Shown: positions 4,734 to 46,700 of the stretch, one piece after another
Layout: each line of letters begins with the position of its first letter
Position numbering within the stretch: the stretch's first letter is position 1
Source of the DNA: Nitrospirota bacterium
Lineage (GTDB): Bacteria > Nitrospirota > Thermodesulfovibrionia > Thermodesulfovibrionales > Magnetobacteriaceae
Reading direction: 5' to 3'
Assembly (NCBI GenBank): GCA_015233615.1
Contig: JADFXJ010000013.1
Coordinates: 1-48,364, forward strand
DNA: 48,364 nucleotides
Notes under the pieces: generated by a model
Databases searched by the model: none
Told to the model about the DNA's origin: nothing
Seen by the model: the letters and a program-made list of their open reading frames with translations, nothing else
Program-made: the position numbers and the translations under genes

Positions 4734-6176
<1,443 letters not shown>

Positions 6177-6179
<3 letters not shown>

Positions 6180-6218
6180 TTGAAATTACCGATTGAAATT
6201 ACACTGATTGAAATTCCG
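6177..6218. repeat. three 14-bp degenerate tandem units between atpD and atpC
   Basis: The units start at 6177, 6191 and 6205, each built on GATTGAAATT. The first contains the TGA stop of atpD. The unit is not shared with the other spacers in the window, so it looks locally duplicated. Confidence 0.75.
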
Positions 6219-6277
6219 GTTGACAAACCAGCGTTGCATATCCTTAAATAAGAGAAGAAGGATAAAAAGAGGGATAA

Positions 6278-6562
6278 TTGGAAGAAAAAACAGCTAATCC
6301 TAACAATAAACTGACTCTTGAGATTATAACCCCCGAGGGGTTTTCGATTAAAGAACTGGTAGACGAGATTGTCGCTCCCGGTACGGAAGGGCAGTTCGGC
6401 GTTTTGCCCGGACACATAAGTTTTTTAACGGCTCTCGACCAGGGTCCCGTAGTTTACAGGAAAGATAAAGAATCTAAGCAGATCGGTGTTAAAGGGGCCT
6501 ATTTGAGAGTAATGAAAGACCACGTTTTGGTACTGGCGGATAGCATCGAAGTCCAGGCATAG
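6278..6562 (+). CDS. atpC: F-type ATP synthase subunit epsilon, short form
   Basis: The 94-residue product has the epsilon N-terminal beta-sandwich: LTLEIITPEGFSI at the start, then EGQFGVLPGHISFLTAL and the end of the sheet. The usual family length is about 130-140 residues; the C-terminal pair of helices, which in many bacteria inhibits ATP hydrolysis, is absent. Short epsilon subunits are known in some lineages such as green sulfur bacteria. The start is TTG at 6278 after an AGGGATAA stretch. The 3' end is the first unit of a 27-bp tandem repeat, so the truncation and the repeat may be connected. Confidence 0.9.
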   Translation: MEEKTANPNNKLTLEIITPEGFSIKELVDEIVAPGTEGQFGVLPGHISFLTALDQGPVVYRKDKESKQIGVKGAYLRVMKDHVLVLADSIEVQA

Positions 6563-6624
6563 GCTTTTAAAATCGAAGTCCCGGCATAGCTTTTAAAATA
6601 GAAATCATGGCGTAGCTTTAAAAC
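6545..6624. repeat. three-unit 26-27 bp tandem repeat starting inside atpC
   Basis: Units start at 6545, 6572 and 6598. The first runs from the last codons of atpC across its TAG; the second and third reproduce the same stretch with a few changes (ATCGAAGTC, GGCATAG, CTTTTAAA) and end exactly at the ATG of the next gene. The spacer is therefore made of copies of the gene end. Confidence 0.88.
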
Positions 6625-7848
6625 ATGAAAATTCCGGAACTTCTCGCTCCGGCTGGCAGTTTTGACAAACTGGTAACCGCTTTACACTATGGTGCCGATG
6701 CCGTGTATCTGGGTATCAGCGCCTTCAGCCTGCGTGCAAAGACCGACAACTTCACCGATAAAACCTTAAAAGAGGCCGTTGCCCTCTGCCGACACTCAGG
6801 AAAGCGGGTCTATGTCACTGTCAATGTATTTGCCCATAACAGTGATATCGACGCGCTTAAAAAACATGTGGAACTGCTTAGGGAAACGGAGCCGGATGGT
6901 GTAATAGTGTCGGACCCGGGTGTGTTCGATTGTTTCTCGGAGCATGCCCCAGGACTTTCCTTGCACGTAAGCACCCAGGCAAATACGACGAACTACCGCT
7001 CGGCAAAGTTCTGGGAGCGACTAGGTGCCAGGAGACTCGTCCTTTCCCGCGAACTCACACTGGAGGAGATACGCCGTATACGAGATCACGTCTCTTTAGA
7101 ACTGGAGTGTTTCGTCCATGGCTCGCTATGCATCTCTTATTCCGGCCGCTGCTATATGAGCAGTTTTCTCGCAAACCGCAGTGCAAACCTAGGCCGGTGT
7201 ACAAATTCCTGCAGGTGGAAATATGCCCTCGTCGAAGAAAAACGTCCGGGCCAATACTTGCCGGTTTACGAAGACGACAGGGGCACCTACGTGATGAGTT
7301 CACGAGACCTGTGTTTGATAGAACATCTGGATAAACTGGCGGATGCCGGAGTCGATAGCTTTAAGATAGAGGGACGTATGAAGGGGGTCAATTACCTGGC
7401 CGGCGTCGTGAAGTCCTATAGGGAGGCCGTCGATGCCCTCGCCGTAAATCCGTATATGGTGAAAGAGAGTTGGCTCGGGGAGTTAGCCGCAACGTCGAAC
7501 AGGGGATTTACTACCGGCATGTACCTGGGCAAGCAACCCGATGGCGATTACAACCACGACGAAGAGGAAATATACAGGACGGGCCGCACTCTTGTGGGCA
7601 TTGTCAAGGCAATCGACGGCACTCGCGGCAAAGTGCTATTAAGAGATACCCTCAGGATAGGCGATACTCTGGAGCCTCTTACCCATGGTTGCGAAAGGAC
7701 GTCTTTTTGCGTAACCGAAATGCGGGATCTCGATGGAAATCACATCGACACCGGAAAGGCCGCCCAAAATAACGAGGAAATGATAGTTATTAACCTGCCG
7801 GCAGGCGTTAGGGTTAATGACTTGCTCAGAAGGGGAAACAACTCATAA
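6625..7848 (+). CDS. peptidase U32 family protein, likely tRNA hydroxylation protein TrhP/YegQ type
   Basis: The 407-residue product starts with PELLAPAGSFDKLVTALHYG and YLGISAFSLRA, the conserved opening of the U32 family. It has the family cysteine cluster CFVHGSLCISYSGRCYMS followed by GRCTNSCRWKY. The stretch DSFKIEGRMKGVNYLAGVV is typical of YegQ/TrhP, which in Escherichia coli is needed for 5-hydroxyuridine formation in tRNA wobble positions. Family members were long annotated as collagenases; tRNA modification is the better guess here. It follows atpC with only the repeat spacer between, so it may be read through from the atp operon. No clear ribosome-binding site is visible. Confidence 0.85.
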   Translation: MKIPELLAPAGSFDKLVTALHYGADAVYLGISAFSLRAKTDNFTDKTLKEAVALCRHSGKRVYVTVNVFAHNSDIDALKKHVELLRETEPDGVIVSDPGVFDCFSEHAPGLSLHVSTQANTTNYRSAKFWERLGARRLVLSRELTLEEIRRIRDHVSLELECFVHGSLCISYSGRCYMSSFLANRSANLGRCTNSCRWKYALVEEKRPGQYLPVYEDDRGTYVMSSRDLCLIEHLDKLADAGVDSFKIEGRMKGVNYLAGVVKSYREAVDALAVNPYMVKESWLGELAATSNRGFTTGMYLGKQPDGDYNHDEEEIYRTGRTLVGIVKAIDGTRGKVLLRDTLRIGDTLEPLTHGCERTSFCVTEMRDLDGNHIDTGKAAQNNEEMIVINLPAGVRVNDLLRRGNNS

Positions 7849-20011: not shown

Positions 20012-20902
20012 ATGTCAAAGTCGCAGATCGTTTTCGTTTCGTCGTCTTGGGATATGGCGGATTGGGCCGCACTTACGGTTGCCTATGTCCGTGACTTCTC
20101 GGCACGCCACGGTCTGTCCGAACTCGAGGTTAATGATTACCGCGACATCGATCCATCCGACGTCAATCACGCTGCCACTTGGCAGGATAACGTAGGCGCA
20201 CCTTCGCGGATGAATACCGCACTCACCATTGTACTCTTGGGCGAACGCCTTGGGACACCTTTGCCCGCTGATTTCAAGTTAAAGGAAGACATCTATGGCC
20301 GCCTGAAGCGCGATGGACATGACTGGGTGCACGTGGCAGGCATGTCGCCGGAGCCTATGCAGCCCGGCCAAGCGCCATTGACTGGCGTTTTATTCGAATA
20401 TTTCGACGCTTTTCTGTCCCGCGCCGATGGCTCACAACCGTCACCTTTGAGGGTTATGATCAAGGGCAAATGGGACGGCAAAGAAGAGCCGGACTTTGGC
20501 AATGGCGAGTTTCGCTCTGAAATCGAGGCCGGCAACGAAACGGCGCAACGCAAAAGGGGCCTGCGGAAAGAATATGAACAGCAACTGGAATGGATGAATA
20601 TATTATGGCGCAAATTATATGGGCTTCAACAACGTGTCAGTCTGTTTTGTCCGGACCAAAGCACTTTCCTCACCAATCTCGAACGAGCGCTGGAGGCTGA
20701 GTTTCTATCAAACGGAACTATCATTGCAGGCGCTAGCTATTACTCGACGCTGAACGAGAGTGCCACAGCAGGTAAGCTGTGCAGTCGTCCCCAGCAACAC
20801 CACCCCGCTCAATTCCCTTACATAATTTTACATAATATCTCTTATCAGACGTTATATATCAACAAGCTTTGTTTGCAACATGTTGATAAGCCTGTTAAAT
20901 AG
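20012..20902 (+). CDS. truncated conflict-system protein with DUF4062/TIR-like N-terminal domain
   Basis: The 296-residue product begins QIVFVSSSWDMADW and contains TALTIVLLGERLGTPLP and GVLFEYFDAF. These are features of DUF4062-like/TIR-like domains that in related proteins precede a STAND NTPase module. After about residue 250 the sequence stops resembling a domain and becomes an arbitrary tail (HHPAQFPYIILHNIS...) up to the stop. No P-loop or repeat domain follows, so the protein looks cut off just before the NTPase part. Base composition also shifts: the first 770 bp are visibly richer in GC than both the tail and the neighbours, which suggests horizontal origin. It may be a decayed remnant. 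The domain call is from memory of family patterns and is moderate. Confidence 0.5.
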   Translation: MSKSQIVFVSSSWDMADWAALTVAYVRDFSARHGLSELEVNDYRDIDPSDVNHAATWQDNVGAPSRMNTALTIVLLGERLGTPLPADFKLKEDIYGRLKRDGHDWVHVAGMSPEPMQPGQAPLTGVLFEYFDAFLSRADGSQPSPLRVMIKGKWDGKEEPDFGNGEFRSEIEAGNETAQRKRGLRKEYEQQLEWMNILWRKLYGLQQRVSLFCPDQSTFLTNLERALEAEFLSNGTIIAGASYYSTLNESATAGKLCSRPQQHHPAQFPYIILHNISYQTLYINKLCLQHVDKPVK

Positions 20903-29993: not shown

Positions 29994-30809
29994 TTGCCCG
30001 TGAAAAATGTTTTTTTGATAATCGTGGTGTTTCTTATGTCTGCATCAAACGTATATTCTGATGTATATCCCGATGTATACTCTAAAATGATCGACTATAA
30101 AGACGGGGATACGGTTTTAGAGGGATACATTGCTTACGACAAAACCATAAAAGTAAAACGTCCTGCCGTGCTTATAGTCCATGACTGGATGGGCCCGGGG
30201 GAATTCTTCTATGAAAAAGCGCAACGATTGGCAAAACTTGGCTATGTCGCTTTTGTCGCGGATATTTACGGTAAGAACGTACGGCCTAAGGACAGAGCCG
30301 GGGCTTCTAACCTTGCCGGCACATACAAAAATGATCGCAATCTCTTGCGCGAGCGTGTTAAAGCCGCACTGGGTTATTTGCAAACCGTCGTAGGCGTAGA
30401 CAAGCAACGCATAGCCGCTATAGGTTATTGCTTCGGCGGGACGGCAGTGTTGGAACTTGCAAGAAGCGGCGAAGAACTCGCCGGCGTTGTAAGTATCCAT
30501 GGTGGTCTCGATACACCCGACCCCAAAAGCAGCATTATCAAAACTAAAGTGCTAGTTCTGCAGGGTGCGGATGACCCTGTTACACCGCCGGATATAGTAA
30601 AGGCATTCCAGGACGAGATGCGTCAAACGGGTACCGACTGGCAGATGGTCATTTATGGCAACGCAGTACATGCCTTTACAAACCCCAAGGCCGGGAACGA
30701 CAACTTAAAAGGTGCGGCTTATAACGAAAAAGCCGATAAAAGATCCTGGGAAGCGTTAAAAGAGTTTTTTAAAGAAGTATTCGAAAAATGTAACTACTCA
30801 GATGTCTGA
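29994..30809 (+). CDS. dienelactone hydrolase family protein, exported
   Basis: From the TTG at 29994 the product has 271 residues: a signal peptide (VKNVFLIIVVFLMSASNVYS), then an alpha/beta-hydrolase of the dienelactone hydrolase family. The nucleophile is the Cys of GYCFGG, the acid the Asp in GADDPV, and the base the His in AVHAFTNP. Exported members of this family have broad esterase or unknown roles. I chose 29994 because AAGG lies nine bases upstream; TTG 29985 and GTG 30000 are alternatives. SDVYPDVYSKM just after the signal peptide is a small internal repeat. The last six residues (CNYSDV) and the stop come from an inserted miniature element; before insertion the gene would have ended ...VFEK followed by TAA. 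Confidence 0.85.
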   Translation: MPVKNVFLIIVVFLMSASNVYSDVYPDVYSKMIDYKDGDTVLEGYIAYDKTIKVKRPAVLIVHDWMGPGEFFYEKAQRLAKLGYVAFVADIYGKNVRPKDRAGASNLAGTYKNDRNLLRERVKAALGYLQTVVGVDKQRIAAIGYCFGGTAVLELARSGEELAGVVSIHGGLDTPDPKSSIIKTKVLVLQGADDPVTPPDIVKAFQDEMRQTGTDWQMVIYGNAVHAFTNPKAGNDNLKGAAYNEKADKRSWEALKEFFKEVFEKCNYSDV

Positions 30810-30981
30810 ACTGTGATTTAAATGATTTCTTGATTTACTATGATTCATATAATGTGGGAAGCGGATATTTGTTATTTATCATAGCCTTCATTTAATCATT
30901 ATTAATCACAGTTCAAGACAATTATCTGCTGCATTTCTGCTATTGAAACAGCCACCTTTTAACACTAACCTGAGTAGTTAC
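30790..30981. mobile_element. 192-bp IS66-like miniature inverted-repeat element (copy 1)
   Basis: The ends GTAACTACTCAG (30790-30801) and CTGAGTAGTTAC (30970-30981) are perfect 12-bp inverted repeats. They are flanked by a perfect 8-bp direct repeat CGAAAAAT (30782-30789 and 30982-30989), the target-site duplication. Ends beginning GTAA and 8-bp duplications are features of the IS66 family. An internal inverted repeat (GAACTGTGATT 30808-30818, AATCACAGTTC 30904-30914) can fold. It has no coding capacity and would need a transposase in trans. Confidence 0.88.
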
Positions 30982-31016
30982 CGAAAAATAATGTTTCAAT
31001 CCTTTTGAAGCCCTCC

Positions 31017-35404: not shown

Positions 35405-35614
35405 CCCCTTCCTTTTCAAGGAAGGGGAGCCTTAAGGGAAAGGATTCCATCCTCTCCCTTAAGGCTCCCTTACCTGCAAGGGGCTTCGCCCCCTTGACCC
35501 CCCGACGTCAAGCGCGCCATGAGCAATGAATCCCGAACGACGATGTGGTACTTAAAGGGGGTTTCAAAAGGGGGCGAAGTCCCCTTTGGCTCCTCTTTCC
35601 TATTAGGAAAGAGG
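35405..35614. repeat. cluster of strong hairpins upstream of the caspase-FGE gene
   Basis: Five perfect inverted repeats occur in 210 bp: 35405-35414/35418-35427 (10-bp stem), 35425-35439/35455-35469 (15-bp stem around CCTTAAGG), 35477-35483/35490-35496, 35567-35573/35581-35587, and 35592-35602/35604-35614 (11-bp stem). The first two overlap and exclude each other. The rest of 35318-35684 holds no gene. Such G/C-run palindromes are often dispersed repeats. Confidence 0.75.
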
Positions 35615-35684: not shown

Positions 35685-37307
35685 TTGACAGGACTCCAAG
35701 AGGAGCGTTTTTTTGCGGTCGTGCTTGGCGCGAGTAAATTCCCCAAAGCACCGTTGCTGGGTTCCAACGTGTCACTTGCGTCTTCGGCGGAGGACATGCG
35801 GGATTATTTCCTGGATGAAAGCGGCCTTGCAATCGATCCGGACAATGTCAAATGGTTATTCGACGATCATCGCTCTCCATTGGCACAACTGGAAGACCTG
35901 GCGACATTTCTTTCCGAACGTCAGGAATTCCTTCGGGATGCCGGCACCCCGGTATCTGCACTAATTTTCTATTACGTGGGACATGGAATATTCACAAGAG
36001 GCGATCAGGCATATTGCTTTGCCATCCGGACTACAAATGGCGAGATGGAAGGACCGTCCAGCATACGCGCCGTCGATCTCGCTAAAACGATTAAAAATAA
36101 AGCCTTTTCTTTGCGTCGATATCTCATTCTTGACTGTTGTTTTGCCGCTACGGCCTACAAGGATCTCCTGTCTGCCCCTTTGGATATGGTTAGTACTCAA
36201 ATTTACAAGAGCTTTCCAAGGCAAGGAACTTCGCTGCTATGCGCTTCCAGCGCCCATAACGCAGCCCTGGCGCCTCCATCTCTTGAAAGGACAATGTTTA
36301 CGGATGCGTTGCTTCGTGTTTTGCGAAGTGGCCACCCCAATATCACCGGTAAGTTGTCATTCAGCGACATAGGAGAACTTGTTACCCAGGAGCTAATAAA
36401 TTCGTATCCCTCCGATTATGTGAGACCCGAAGTTCACTCACCGGATCAACAAGAAGGTAATATAGCCGACATCCCTCTCTTCCCTAATCCTGCCGCTTCT
36501 AAGCCATCTGAGCCCCAAGGAGTGAATCGAGCAAACAAAGTTGAAATTAAACATGGTGACGAAAGGCAGGCGGTAGAAGGCTCTACCTATACAGACCCCA
36601 TAACCGGCATGGAGTTTGTGTTTGTTAAGGGCGGCTGTTATCAGATGGGAGATACCTTTGGAGATGGAGATGATGATGAAAGGCCCGTTCACGAAGTATG
36701 TGTGAACGATTTTTGGATAGGAAAATACGAGGTAACGCAGGGCCAGTGGATGAAAGTGATGGGGAACAACAATCCTTCGAGCTCCAAAAAGGTCGATAAT
36801 TACCCGGTTGAGACGGTAAACTGGGACGATGTCCAAGAATTCATAACAAAGCTTAACCGGCAGACGGATGAGAAATATCGTTTGCCGACTGAGGCGGAGT
36901 GGGAGTATGCAGCTCGTGAGGGAGGAAAGCAGGTAAGATTTGCAACGGGAACCGACAGGATAAATTCCGGTATTGCCAACTTTGACGCAAGTACGGAATA
37001 TAAGGAATCCTATTCAGACGCGGGTAAATATCGTAAAGAAACGACGCCGGTTGGAAGTTTCATGCCTAACGGACTTGGCATATATGACATGAGCGGTAAC
37101 GTTTGGGAGTGGGTCGAGGATATATATAGCGCCGATGCTTATAGGAATCATAAGCGTGATAATCCTATATATACTGGGAATGACTCCATTCGTGTTCTAC
37201 GCGGTGGCAGTTGGAGCGACAGGCCGCGGGGTGTGCGGGTCTTCTCCCGCCGTGCGCGCGTTCGCCGCAGCCCCTACGTCGGCTTCCGTCTCGCAAGGAC
37301 TCCGTAA
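35685..37307 (+). CDS. caspase-like protease fused to formylglycine-enzyme-like domain; possible DGR target
   Basis: The 540-residue product starts with a caspase/metacaspase domain (about 8-250) whose catalytic pair is visible: His100 in YYVGHG and Cys152 in LILDCCFA. After a linker, residues about 300-540 form an FGE-sulfatase-like (C-type-lectin-like) domain with FVFVKGGCYQMGD, KYEVTQGQWMKVMG, YRLPTEAEWEYAAREGG and NVWEWVEDIY. This domain is used by known DGR target proteins, whose variable stretch ends in RGGSW...GFRL; the same ending occurs here. The formylglycine-forming active-site cysteines are not evident, so binding is more likely than enzyme activity. The TTG start at 35685 lacks a good ribosome site, so expression or the exact N-terminus is uncertain. 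Such caspase plus sensor fusions belong to conflict or cell-suicide systems. Confidence 0.82.
   Translation: MTGLQEERFFAVVLGASKFPKAPLLGSNVSLASSAEDMRDYFLDESGLAIDPDNVKWLFDDHRSPLAQLEDLATFLSERQEFLRDAGTPVSALIFYYVGHGIFTRGDQAYCFAIRTTNGEMEGPSSIRAVDLAKTIKNKAFSLRRYLILDCCFAATAYKDLLSAPLDMVSTQIYKSFPRQGTSLLCASSAHNAALAPPSLERTMFTDALLRVLRSGHPNITGKLSFSDIGELVTQELINSYPSDYVRPEVHSPDQQEGNIADIPLFPNPAASKPSEPQGVNRANKVEIKHGDERQAVEGSTYTDPITGMEFVFVKGGCYQMGDTFGDGDDDERPVHEVCVNDFWIGKYEVTQGQWMKVMGNNNPSSSKKVDNYPVETVNWDDVQEFITKLNRQTDEKYRLPTEAEWEYAAREGGKQVRFATGTDRINSGIANFDASTEYKESYSDAGKYRKETTPVGSFMPNGLGIYDMSGNVWEWVEDIYSADAYRNHKRDNPIYTGNDSIRVLRGGSWSDRPRGVRVFSRRARVRRSPYVGFRLARTP
37200..37304 (+). other. candidate DGR variable region at the C-terminus
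   Basis: From RGGSW to the end the DNA is much richer in GC than the rest of the gene. Many codons that would be AAC or AAT in a DGR template end in C or T here: AGC and GAC (37215-37220), GGT (37230), TTC (37242), CGT (37251), CGC (37257), GTT (37260), then CGC CGC AGC CCC TAC (37263-37277). No reverse transcriptase or template repeat is seen in this window, so the DGR parts would have to be elsewhere. Confidence 0.45.
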
Positions 37308-37347
37308 CTTTTTGGTTTTTTACATTTTGGCCGTTCGCGATTTTTTT

Positions 37348-37522
37348 GTAACTATTCAGGATAGTGTTAAAAGGTGGGTGTTTCAATAGTAGAAATGGAG
37401 CAAATAATTGTCTTGAACTGTGATTAATAATGATTAAATGAAAACTATGATAAATGACAAATATCCGCTTTTCACATTATTAATCATAGTAAATCAAAAA
37501 ATCATTTAAATCATAGTTCAGA
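37348..37522. mobile_element. IS66-like miniature element, copy 2 (inverted, one end lost)
   Basis: This 175-bp stretch is the reverse complement of 30805-30981 with a few differences. It keeps one terminal repeat (GTAACTATTCAG at 37348-37359, one mismatch) but the opposite end lacks it and no target duplication is seen. It starts 40 bp after the caspase-FGE stop. Confidence 0.8.
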
Positions 37523-42496: not shown

Positions 42497-43764
42497 TGGA
42501 AATGCGAGGCGCTTTTGTACGTAAATTCAACGCCATAAGAAATATATCCGGCGCCATAGCGACGATACTTATCGTTGCCGCCTTGGCTACGTTAACCATG
42601 TTAGCACAGTCTTGTACGAAAGACGCAGTAGGAGTCAACACAAAACGCCCGCAGGCGGTGATACCGGTTACCGCGGCCATGGCCGTAGAAAAGGATGTCC
42701 CCGTGGAGCTGCGTGCCGTAGGCAACGTAGAAGCCTATTCTACGGTCTCCGTTAAATCGCTGATAAGCGGGCAGTTGCAGGAGATCCATTTCAAGGAGGG
42801 GCAGGACGTTAAAAAAGGAGATCTCCTGTTCACTATAGACCCGAGGACCAACGAGGTGGCACTCAAGCAGGCCGAAGCCGCCTACGCACGCGACCTGGCC
42901 CAGATGGAAAACGCTAAAAAGGATGCCCGCAGATATGAAGAACTCGCCAAAAAGGAATACGTCGCAGTGTCCCAGTACGACCAGTACCGAACGGCAGCCG
43001 ACGCACTGGAAGCCACCGTCAAAGCCGATAAGGCTTCAATCGACAATGCCAAACTTCAGCTTAGCTACTGTTTCATTTACTCTCCGGTGACCGGACGCAC
43101 GGGCAGCCTGCTCATACACAAAGGGAATTTGATTAAAGCAAGCGACGACAATAAATTCATGGTCGTTATTAACCAGGTACAACCCATATACGTAAATTTC
43201 GCGGTACCGGCACAATACCTTCCCGATATAAAGAGATACGACTCGGGTGGAAAACTGGCCATAGAGGCAACCCAGCCCCAAACTAACGAGGCCCCGGAGA
43301 AGGGGGTTTTAACGTTCATCGACAACGCCGTGGATAACACTACCGGTACCATACATATCAAGGGCACCTTCGATAACAATAGCAAATCACTGTGGCCCGG
43401 AGAATTCGTAAACGTCAGGCTGACTTTAACGGTAAAGCCGCACGCCGTGGTCGTGCCGTCGCAGACCGTAATGACCGGCCAAAGCGGCCAGTTCGTTTAC
43501 GTCATAAAACCCGACTCGACCGTAGATACCCGTTACGTAACGACGGGAATTGCCACTGACCGCGAAACCGTAATCGATAGCGGGCTCAAAACGGGCGAAC
43601 AAGTGGTAACCGACGGGCAGCTCCGCCTCGTGTCGGGCTCGAAGGTATCCATAAAGGGTGCCGAAAAGGGTTCCGAAAAAGGTGGTGACAAGAGTCCCGA
43701 AAAAGGCGGCGAAAAAGGTGGCGATAAGGGCCCCGCACAAGACAACGGGGTAAAGAAGGGATGA
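42493..43764 (+). CDS. RND efflux periplasmic adaptor (membrane fusion protein)
   Basis: The 423-residue product has a signal-like N-terminus that may be a lipoprotein (LTMLAQSC), the lipoyl part (VELRAVGNVEAYSTVSVKS; GQDVKKGDLLFTIDPR), a helical hairpin, and the beta-barrel region (FIYSPVTGRTGSLLIHKGN; WPGEFVNVRLTL). These features match AcrA/MdtA adaptors. The C-terminus is a Gly/Lys/Glu-rich repeat tail (EKGGDK-type), probably low-complexity. It overlaps tolC by four bases and the pump gene by four bases, so the three are translated as a coupled set. Confidence 0.92.
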   Translation: MMEMRGAFVRKFNAIRNISGAIATILIVAALATLTMLAQSCTKDAVGVNTKRPQAVIPVTAAMAVEKDVPVELRAVGNVEAYSTVSVKSLISGQLQEIHFKEGQDVKKGDLLFTIDPRTNEVALKQAEAAYARDLAQMENAKKDARRYEELAKKEYVAVSQYDQYRTAADALEATVKADKASIDNAKLQLSYCFIYSPVTGRTGSLLIHKGNLIKASDDNKFMVVINQVQPIYVNFAVPAQYLPDIKRYDSGGKLAIEATQPQTNEAPEKGVLTFIDNAVDNTTGTIHIKGTFDNNSKSLWPGEFVNVRLTLTVKPHAVVVPSQTVMTGQSGQFVYVIKPDSTVDTRYVTTGIATDRETVIDSGLKTGEQVVTDGQLRLVSGSKVSIKGAEKGSEKGGDKSPEKGGEKGGDKGPAQDNGVKKG

Positions 43765-46700
43765 GCATATCCGGCATATTCATACAGCGCCCCATAATGA
43801 CGACCCTCGTAATGGCAGCCATACTGATGTTCGGAATCATCGGCTATAATTTACTGCCGGTGAGCGACTTGCCAAACGTCGATTTTCCCACCATACTCGT
43901 TACCGCATCCCTGCCCGGTGCGAGTCCCGAGACAATGGCCTCCGCCGTAGCCACTCCGTTAGAGAGGCAATTTTCCACCATCGCCGGTCTCGATACAATG
44001 ACTTCGACCAACGCTTTAGGCGCCACCCAGATAACGCTCCAATTTAACCTGAACAAGAGCCTGGACTCCGCAGCACTCGACGTACAGTCCATGATAACCA
44101 AGGCCGCCCCCCTGCTTCCCCAGAACATGCCCACCCCACCCTCGTTCCAAAAAGTTAACCCGGCGGATCAGCCAGTTATATACCTGGCTCTGTCCTCCCC
44201 CACTCTACCCCTTTCCATGGTTAACGAGTACGCGGACACGACGATATCCCAGCGGGTCTCGATGCTTCCCGGCGTAGCCCAGGTACAGATATTCGGCACC
44301 CAGAAATACGCGGTCAGGATTCAGCTTGACCCCGACGCGTTAGCCTATAGGGGAATCGGTATAAACGAGGTATCCAACGCCATACAGTCGGGTAACGTGC
44401 TCCTTCCCACGGGCACACTCTACGGCAAGCAGCGGGCTTTTACGATAAACACGGAGGGACAGCTCACGAAAGCAACCGATTTCAACCCGCTAATCGTAGC
44501 ATATAGAAACGGCGCCCCCGTAAGGATTCAGGATATAGGCAAAGCCGTAGATGACGTCCAGGAAAACAAGATAGCAAGCTGGTTTACGGGTACCCGTGCC
44601 ATAATTCTTGCCATTCAGCGCCAGCCCGGCACAAACACCGTGGAAGTAGTGAACTCCATAAAGAAATTGCTTCCCGTGTTTCGTAAGCAGATGCCGGCCG
44701 CCATTAACCTGGATATAATATACGACAGGTCGGTCTCGATACGCGACTCCGTGGCCGACGTGAAATTCACGTTGATACTAACCGTAGCGCTGGTCGTAAT
44801 GGTTATATTTCTGTTTCTCAGGAATTTTTCGGCTACCGTAATACCGAGCCTGGCCCTCCCAATGTCCATAGTGGGCACTTTCGCGGCCATGTACCTGCTG
44901 AATTTCAGCATTGACACACTGTCTCTCATGGCCCTGACCCTATCCGTGGGATTTGTCGTAGACGACGCCATAGTGATGCTCGAAAACATAATACGCCACG
45001 TCGAAATGGGCGAAACCGTCTACGAAGCGGCGATGAAAGGCTCAAGGGAGATAGGGTTCACCATTTTGTCCATGACGCTGTCACTCGTGGCAGTCTTTAT
45101 ACCCGTGCTTTTCATGGGCGGCATACTGGGCAGGCTGCTCCACGAATTCGCAGTAACCATCAGCATGGCCATACTGGTATCCGGTTTCGTATCCCTGACG
45201 CTTACTCCCATGCTCTGTAGTCGCTTCATCCGGCCGCATGGCTCCGTTAAGCATGGGTGGTTTTATAACGTTATGGAAAACGCCTTTAACCGGCTGCTCA
45301 GGTCTTACGACGGAAGCCTTAAAGTCGTACTGCGCCACCGCCGCATGGCCATGGTTTTTTCTTTCTTAATCCTGCTGGCATCCATCTACATGTTTAAGAT
45401 TATTCCCATGGGGTTCCTTCCCAGCGTAGACACCGGACAGATATTCTCTATTACCGAAGCGGTTCAGGGAATATCGTTCAAGTCCATGGTGGAGCACCAG
45501 CAAAAGCTCGCCGCCATTGTGAAGGAAGACCCGAACATAGACGTTTTCATGTCGAGCGTCGGTGCCGGCGGACCAAACTTAGCCGGCAATGCGGGACGCA
45601 TATTCATGCGTCTTAAGCCCAGGAATCAACGCCGACTGAGTGCCGACGAAATAATCCAGGAGCTGAGGCCCAAGGTCGCAAAAGTCCCCGGCATTCAGAT
45701 GTATATGCAGAACCTGCCCCTCATAAGGATTGGCGGAGTGCTGACAAAGAGCCAGTACCAGTACACGCTCCAGGGGCCCGATACCGCCGAGCTCTACAAA
45801 TATTCCACGATACTGGAAGATAACCTCAAAACCTCGCCGCTGCTTCTGCCGCTGCTACAGGACGTCACAAGCGATCTGCTGATAAAAAATCCCCAGATTA
45901 ACGTAACTATAAACCGCGACGCCGCAAGCGCCCTCGGCGTAACGGCTACTCAGATAGAAGACGCCCTGTACTCAGCCTACGGTTCCCGCCAGGTATCGAC
46001 CATTTACGCTCCCACCAACCAGTACTGGGTTATAACGGAGCTGAAACCGGAGTATCAGGTGGACCCCTCACAGTTATCTATGCTATACATAAGGGCAACG
46101 AATGGTACTCTGGTTCCAATAAACTACGTTGCGAAATTGTCCAACGGCGTTGGCCCTCTTTCAGTAAACCACCTAGGCCAACTGCCCGCGGTTACCATCT
46201 CCTTTAACCTGAAACCGGGTGTGGCTCTGAGCGATGCCGTCAAGTCGATAGAAAAAGTCTCCACCGATACCCTGCCGCAAACTATCAGCACGGGGTTTCA
46301 GGGAGCGGCGCAGGCGTTTAAGTCCTCTATGAGCGGGCTGTGGATACTTCTTATCATGGCAATAGTAATTATCTACATAGTCCTCGGTATACTCTACGAA
46401 AGCTACGTCCATCCTCTGACAATACTTTCAGGACTTCCTTCGGCCGGGTTTGGCGCCCTGCTGACTCTGATGATCTTCCACAAGGAGCTGAACATTTACG
46501 CTTTCGTGGGAATCATAATGCTCGTGGGCATAGTCAAGAAAAACGCCATCATGATGATCGACTTCGCGCTCGAAGCCCAAAGGCAAGGCGGCAAAACCGC
46601 GGAGGAGGCCATATACGAAGGTTGTCTTATCAGGTTTAGACCAATCATGATGACCACCATGGCCGCACTCATGGGCACCCTGCCAATAGCCATAGGACTC

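Follow-up and report, generated by a model that had tools for sequence, protein, structure and literature searches.

A caspase-FGE fusion gene and its surroundings

The window, by which we mean the whole stretch of DNA that was analysed (48,364 nucleotides), is contig C114 of a Nitrospirota MAG that comprises 220 contigs and is 79.9% complete. On its forward strand, at 35685..37307, lies an intact open reading frame of 540 aa with a TTG start, the position of which is approximate. In line with the initial annotation, which had described a caspase-FGE fusion here, Pfam assigns residues 11-233 (35715..36383) to Peptidase_C14 (E 1.7e-5) and residues 310-538 (36612..37298) to FGE-sulfatase (E 1e-52). 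The His-Cys dyad of caspase p20 is present in the N-terminal domain, with His100 (35982-35984) in the sequence YYVGHG and a DCC motif at residues 150-152, whose Cys151 and Cys152 are encoded at 36135-36140. This domain also matches the NCBIfam model NF047832, 'caspase, EACC1-associated type' (E 1.2e-28), with a score of 100 bits that lies under the curated 140-bit cut-off, and we therefore treat it as a relative of the EACC1-associated type and not as a certified member. No close homolog of the caspase domain was found among 396 genomes of the phylum, and PADLOC returned no match for the window protein. The architecture nevertheless recurs, since a caspase-FGE fusion of 633 aa is encoded in another Nitrospirae MAG, nDJH14bin7 (locus L118). 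Within the window's own genome, contig C6 carries a second such fusion of 715 aa (Peptidase_C14, E 3e-39), the C-terminus of which does not follow the template of the window gene.

The C-terminal domain is modelled by AlphaFold from 12 sequences as an FGE/C-type-lectin (CLec) fold with a pLDDT of 72, and Foldseek searches with this model gave E values of 1e-15 to FGE and 2e-13 to TvpA; a single-sequence fold of the whole protein reached a pLDDT of only 35. At the profile level the top PDB relative is TvpA of Treponema denticola (2y3c, E 4e-51), a target of a diversity-generating retroelement (DGR). Both the Pfam name and the fold match FGE and would suit a working formylglycine-generating enzyme (or a PvdO/EgtB-like oxidase) joined to a caspase that processes sulfatases; indeed, 33 metacaspase-FGE fusions were noted in 2012 and interpreted as proteins that might combine proteolysis with formylglycine modification (Asplund-Samuelsson et al., 2012, PMC3501461). 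We consider an enzymatic role of this kind very improbable, given that the best profile match is a DGR binding protein. Moreover, copper FGEs require a C-terminal pair of cysteines. The only cysteines of the FGE domain, Cys318 and Cys339, are both N-terminal, and the absence of cysteine from its C-terminal part argues that it is not a copper FGE enzyme.

The genes next to the fusion resemble carbonic anhydrase and MacAB-type transporter genes, as judged by eye from their translations, and the side-by-side arrangement of reverse transcriptase (RT), template repeat (TR) and variable repeat (VR) of a canonical single-locus DGR cassette was not found at the window gene. Upstream of the gene, at 35419-35475, is a long GC-rich inverted repeat with 27-base arms, which is probably a dispersed element or a terminator. 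Downstream, a dispersed MITE-like repeat occupies 37340-37522 and returns in opposite orientation at 30805-30989 (90% identity over 185 bases); part of it is also found behind the FGE gene of contig C159.

A variable C-terminal repeat and its paralogs

The C-terminus of the protein reads RGGSWSDRPRGVRVFSRRARVRRSPYVGFRLARTP, as the initial annotation had described, and comparison with paralogs and TRs places an inferred VR of 96 bases at 37200..37295 on the forward strand, two codons shorter than the VRs of the paralogs. As in DGR targets, this position is the 3' end of a gene that codes for a CLec/FGE-fold domain. The hypervariable core of the repeat, formed by SDRPRGVRVFSRRARVRRSPY and flanking constant codons (37215..37283, forward strand), stands out in base composition, with a GC content of 77% (50% in the gene as a whole) and an A content of 7% (26%); 0.15% of the 69-base stretches of the window are equally A-poor and 0.02% equally GC-rich. 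The local GC-richness remarked on earlier is thus real, and codons of the NNC/NNT type are present as claimed, their number being about ten instead of a dozen. Across most of the VR the pLDDT of the FGE-domain model is below 50, so that the model gives no support for surface exposure of this segment.

The window's own genome contains 17 FGE matches. Two of these genes have C-termini close to that of the window gene, namely a TIR/SEFIR-FGE gene on contig C9 (C9a), which is 75% identical over about 104 bases, and a SEFIR-FGE gene on contig C40. The latter (43592-44397) is broken, being interrupted between 43756 and 43990, and is thus probably a pseudogene. A second template group is formed by the kinase-FGE gene of C84 together with the FGE genes C159 and C9b. 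We aligned the VRs with four TRs, three from relatives and one being the TR-like stretch of contig C179 described below. In the C114/C9a/C40 group 25 of 28 TR-A columns are variable, compared with 13 of 74 other columns (p=2e-11); for the second group (C159, C84 and C9b) the values are 23/28 and 7/74. However, the A-mask positions are variable as well in control FGE pairs drawn from the window's genome and from others (median 0.64), which means that A-mask enrichment alone is not specific for a DGR, and we rejected it as sole proof.

The third codon bases are more telling. Outside the A mask, C114 and C9a differ at 5 of 32 third bases, a smaller fraction than in any of the 66 control FGE pairs, for which the minimum is 0.26 and the median 0.56. 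Where the caspase-FGE gene and the C9 SEFIR-FGE gene encode identical residues they use identical codons at 18 of 21 positions in the VR, as opposed to 51 of 103 upstream (p=0.0018). The contrast is sharper in the second group, with 20/21 in the VR versus 30/66 upstream in one comparison and 20/21 versus 31/74 in another (p<=2.4e-5). For the C114-C40 pair the same test was not significant (12/18 in the VR versus 29/48 upstream), and the synonymous-site conservation of constant VR bases thus holds for C114-C9a and the second group. A few non-A differences separate C114 from C9a: GGC/GGG and CGT/CGC cannot be explained by any template A, and a third, CGT/GGC, adjoins a 6-base gap. Conservation of third bases and codons in the VRs of otherwise diverged genes makes a common source the most likely origin of these tips, and the changes cluster at template A; the caspase-FGE and SEFIR-FGE genes have a template signature in common. 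The template inferred from the paralogs was employed solely for probing; that it matches the same paralogs is circular, and these matches were left uncounted.

Could this pattern have arisen without a DGR, if a ligand-binding loop of FGE paralogs came under ordinary diversifying selection, perhaps with gene conversion between the paralogs? The abundance of FGE/SUMF proteins in this genome and the variation of the same residues in FGE pairs for which no DGR role has been shown would fit such a scenario. It leaves unexplained, however, why VR third bases are nearly identical in genes whose synonymous codons elsewhere agree in only about half of cases, why the core is A-poor and GC-rich, and why full DGR loci with the same type of target occur in the same family, and we regard it as improbable. 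The paralogs, the TRs of relatives and the conservation of third codon bases instead support the initial annotation's proposal of a DGR-type VR on a caspase-FGE protein, and we put the probability that the C-terminal 32-residue tip is a VR written by a DGR at roughly 0.8.

DGR machinery in a relative and the search for it in the window's own genome

A relative of the host carries complete machinery. In MYbinv3, which belongs to the same GTDB family, contig C78 (locus L068) has all of the following on a single strand: genes for a trypsin-FGE target, an HRDC protein, a bAvd (NF033474 match above cut-off) and a DGR-type RT, and a TR. The cis VR differs from this TR by 18 mismatches, 17 of them at A. 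A second FGE gene of MYbinv3 on another contig (locus L100) has 20 mismatches to the TR, all 20 at A, with none of the 70 non-A sites changed; as read from the sequence, trans service therefore exists within the window's family. G134 and G135, of the same order, and G002, of the same family, contain further TRs. MYbinv3 is counted among the magnetotactic Nitrospirae, a group that belongs mostly to the family Magnetobacteriaceae (PMC8353452), and the shared family makes the host of the window a Nitrospirota near magnetotactic bacteria.

The VR genes also have similar 3' flanks. Behind the window gene, a T-rich stretch (37305..37334, forward strand) contains TTTTTACNTTTT at 37317-37328, which occurs once in the window (0.12 expected), and other VR genes share the flank, the cis target of the DGR in MYbinv3 among them; perhaps it forms part of a retrohoming recipient site. 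Motifs of the type GTTTTTTAC-TTTTTACC-TTTTGG directly follow the VR stop codons at L068, L122, L100, L118 and L103 and in the VR genes of the window's own genome, and in several cases a short hairpin comes next. Hairpins resembling those described for other DGRs are present behind some VR genes; behind the window gene, none of at least 6 bp was found.

Within the window, genome-wide searches turned up neither an RT nor a template-like sequence, in agreement with the initial annotation. That annotation had also proposed a genome-wide search for a near-copy with mismatches at A beside an RT gene. In the 79.9%-complete assembly neither was found: there was no DGR RT, no Avd and no cognate TR, the latter having been sought by BLAST, with the pattern GGNGGNWSNTGGAAYAAYAA and with a TR-tail pattern. 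Viral contigs contained no match to the template. Three RTs of the window's own genome were rejected as DGR RTs. Two of them, on C182 and C112, resemble fragments of group II introns, and the one on C173 (10065-10661) belongs to a 946-aa open reading frame that combines RT with an apparent Cas1 and perhaps a Cas6, as in CRISPR-associated RT-Cas1 fusions.

Only contig C179 stood out in the TR search. On its minus strand, at 5642-6811, the 5' part of an FGE open reading frame is joined in frame to an unmutated, AAC-rich, TR-like stretch, and next comes the RNA tail that is conserved behind the TRs of relatives. This stretch was rejected as template of the window VR because 23 of 71 non-A sites differ. 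The simplest reading of the arrangement is a VR-TR recombinant from which the intervening avd and RT have been deleted, although the join may be an assembly chimera. A SEFIR open reading frame lies upstream and phage-like genes, apparently including a Mu-type transposase, lie downstream. A similar mosaic, which we read as another VR-TR fusion within this family, is seen on contig C35 of G002 (around 20366-20434), where a VR-like mutated 5' half is followed by a template-like 3' half and the TR tail, with a broken frame.

These observations bear on whether the VR is still being rewritten. It could be an orphan, written once by a DGR whose RT and TR have since been lost from the lineage, so that the VR is frozen and now evolves normally. 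Such an orphan is a sub-case of a DGR-written VR and differs solely in whether diversification continues. Neither RT, Avd nor cognate TR turned up in what has been assembled, C179 resembles a recombinant that lacks avd and RT, the C40 paralog is broken, and C114 and C9a have come to differ by a few synonymous substitutions, all of which would fit an orphan. On the other hand, about 20% of the genome is missing from the assembly and mobile loci that bear repeats are readily lost in assembly or binning, and the constant codons are mostly still identical, which makes overwriting recent relative to the divergence of the genes. We hold an orphaned VR to be almost an even bet. Service in trans, as the initial annotation had supposed, is plausible for the caspase-FGE VR, because a same-family relative exhibits it and because the template signature of the caspase-FGE gene recurs in the SEFIR-FGE genes. 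To call the protein 'self-diversifying', on the other hand, is too strong, as the locus may be a remote or an orphaned target.

A proposed sensor and its place among known systems

If the VR was written by a DGR, an RT sited elsewhere would copy a template RNA with misincorporation at template adenines, and the mutated cDNA would overwrite the VR of the caspase-FGE gene and those of its SEFIR-FGE sisters on C9 and C40; a second template would serve the kinase-FGE gene of C84 and the FGE genes C159 and C9b. The VR is presumed to form the ligand-contacting face of the C-type-lectin-fold domain, and binding of a ligand would release or assemble, and thereby switch on, the caspase. The protein would thus be a sensor-effector of the conflict type. 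We give this route from sensor to caspase somewhat better than even odds. The domain fusion, the shared-template signature, the variation at template A and the trans service in a relative are read directly from sequence comparison. By inference, the writer would have acted in trans here, the VR would recognise a ligand, either self or from an invader, and this contact would set off proteolysis or cell death.

The kind of protein is already known. Cyanobacterial DGR targets include orthocaspase-, kinase- and TIR-CLec fusions, some of them remote (2020, PMC7517822). Like the window gene, they have a C-terminal CLec/FGE domain with the VR at the 3' end of the gene, behind an N-terminal orthocaspase, Ser/Thr kinase or TIR domain, and their paralogs are dispersed as remote targets. 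In contrast to these systems, the host here is a Nitrospirota of a family with magnetotactic members, the effectors include SEFIR and an EACC1-type caspase, and no RT or cognate TR was detected in the assembly. DGR-linked FGS domains occur in conflict systems (PMC7159879), and in Thiohalocapsa PB-PSB1 DGRs diversify putative antigen sensors, with trans-served and degenerate loci (PNAS 2024, PMC10907252). The likeness to Thiohalocapsa extends from conflict effectors joined to CLec/FGE domains that DGRs diversify, with CHAT caspase-like and TIR domains in one target, to degenerate loci with trans-served targets and to MITE-like repeats at DGR loci. Its machinery, however, is complete and natural variation at A sites has been measured there, whereas the window locus stands alone, with no STAND, MoxR or VMAP partners seen nearby. 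The DGR of MYbinv3 has an FGE target with a protease effector, similar TR residues and a remote trans target; it differs in that RT, bAvd, HRDC and TR are present and in that the effector is trypsin-like instead of a caspase. TvpA (2y3c) shares the FGE-type C-type-lectin fold and the C-terminal VR. Unlike the window protein, it is not known to be fused to a caspase.

What is new here is a member of this known kind in a magnetotactic lineage. Sister genes with other effector modules bear the same VR imprint, which suggests that a single mutator acted remotely on a whole panel of immune-like sensors. More tentatively, and in our view rather doubtfully, one template may have served caspase and SEFIR effectors in trans and a second one kinases, with VR-TR recombination repeatedly deleting the writer and freezing the repertoire, so that sensors would switch between a diversifying and a fixed state. 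If the DGR reading is right, DGR-diversified conflict proteins would extend to the magnetotactic Nitrospirota lineage, two types of effector, caspase and SEFIR, would have been written from apparently one template, and these genes would provide a concrete set for tracing how trans diversification proceeds and is lost.
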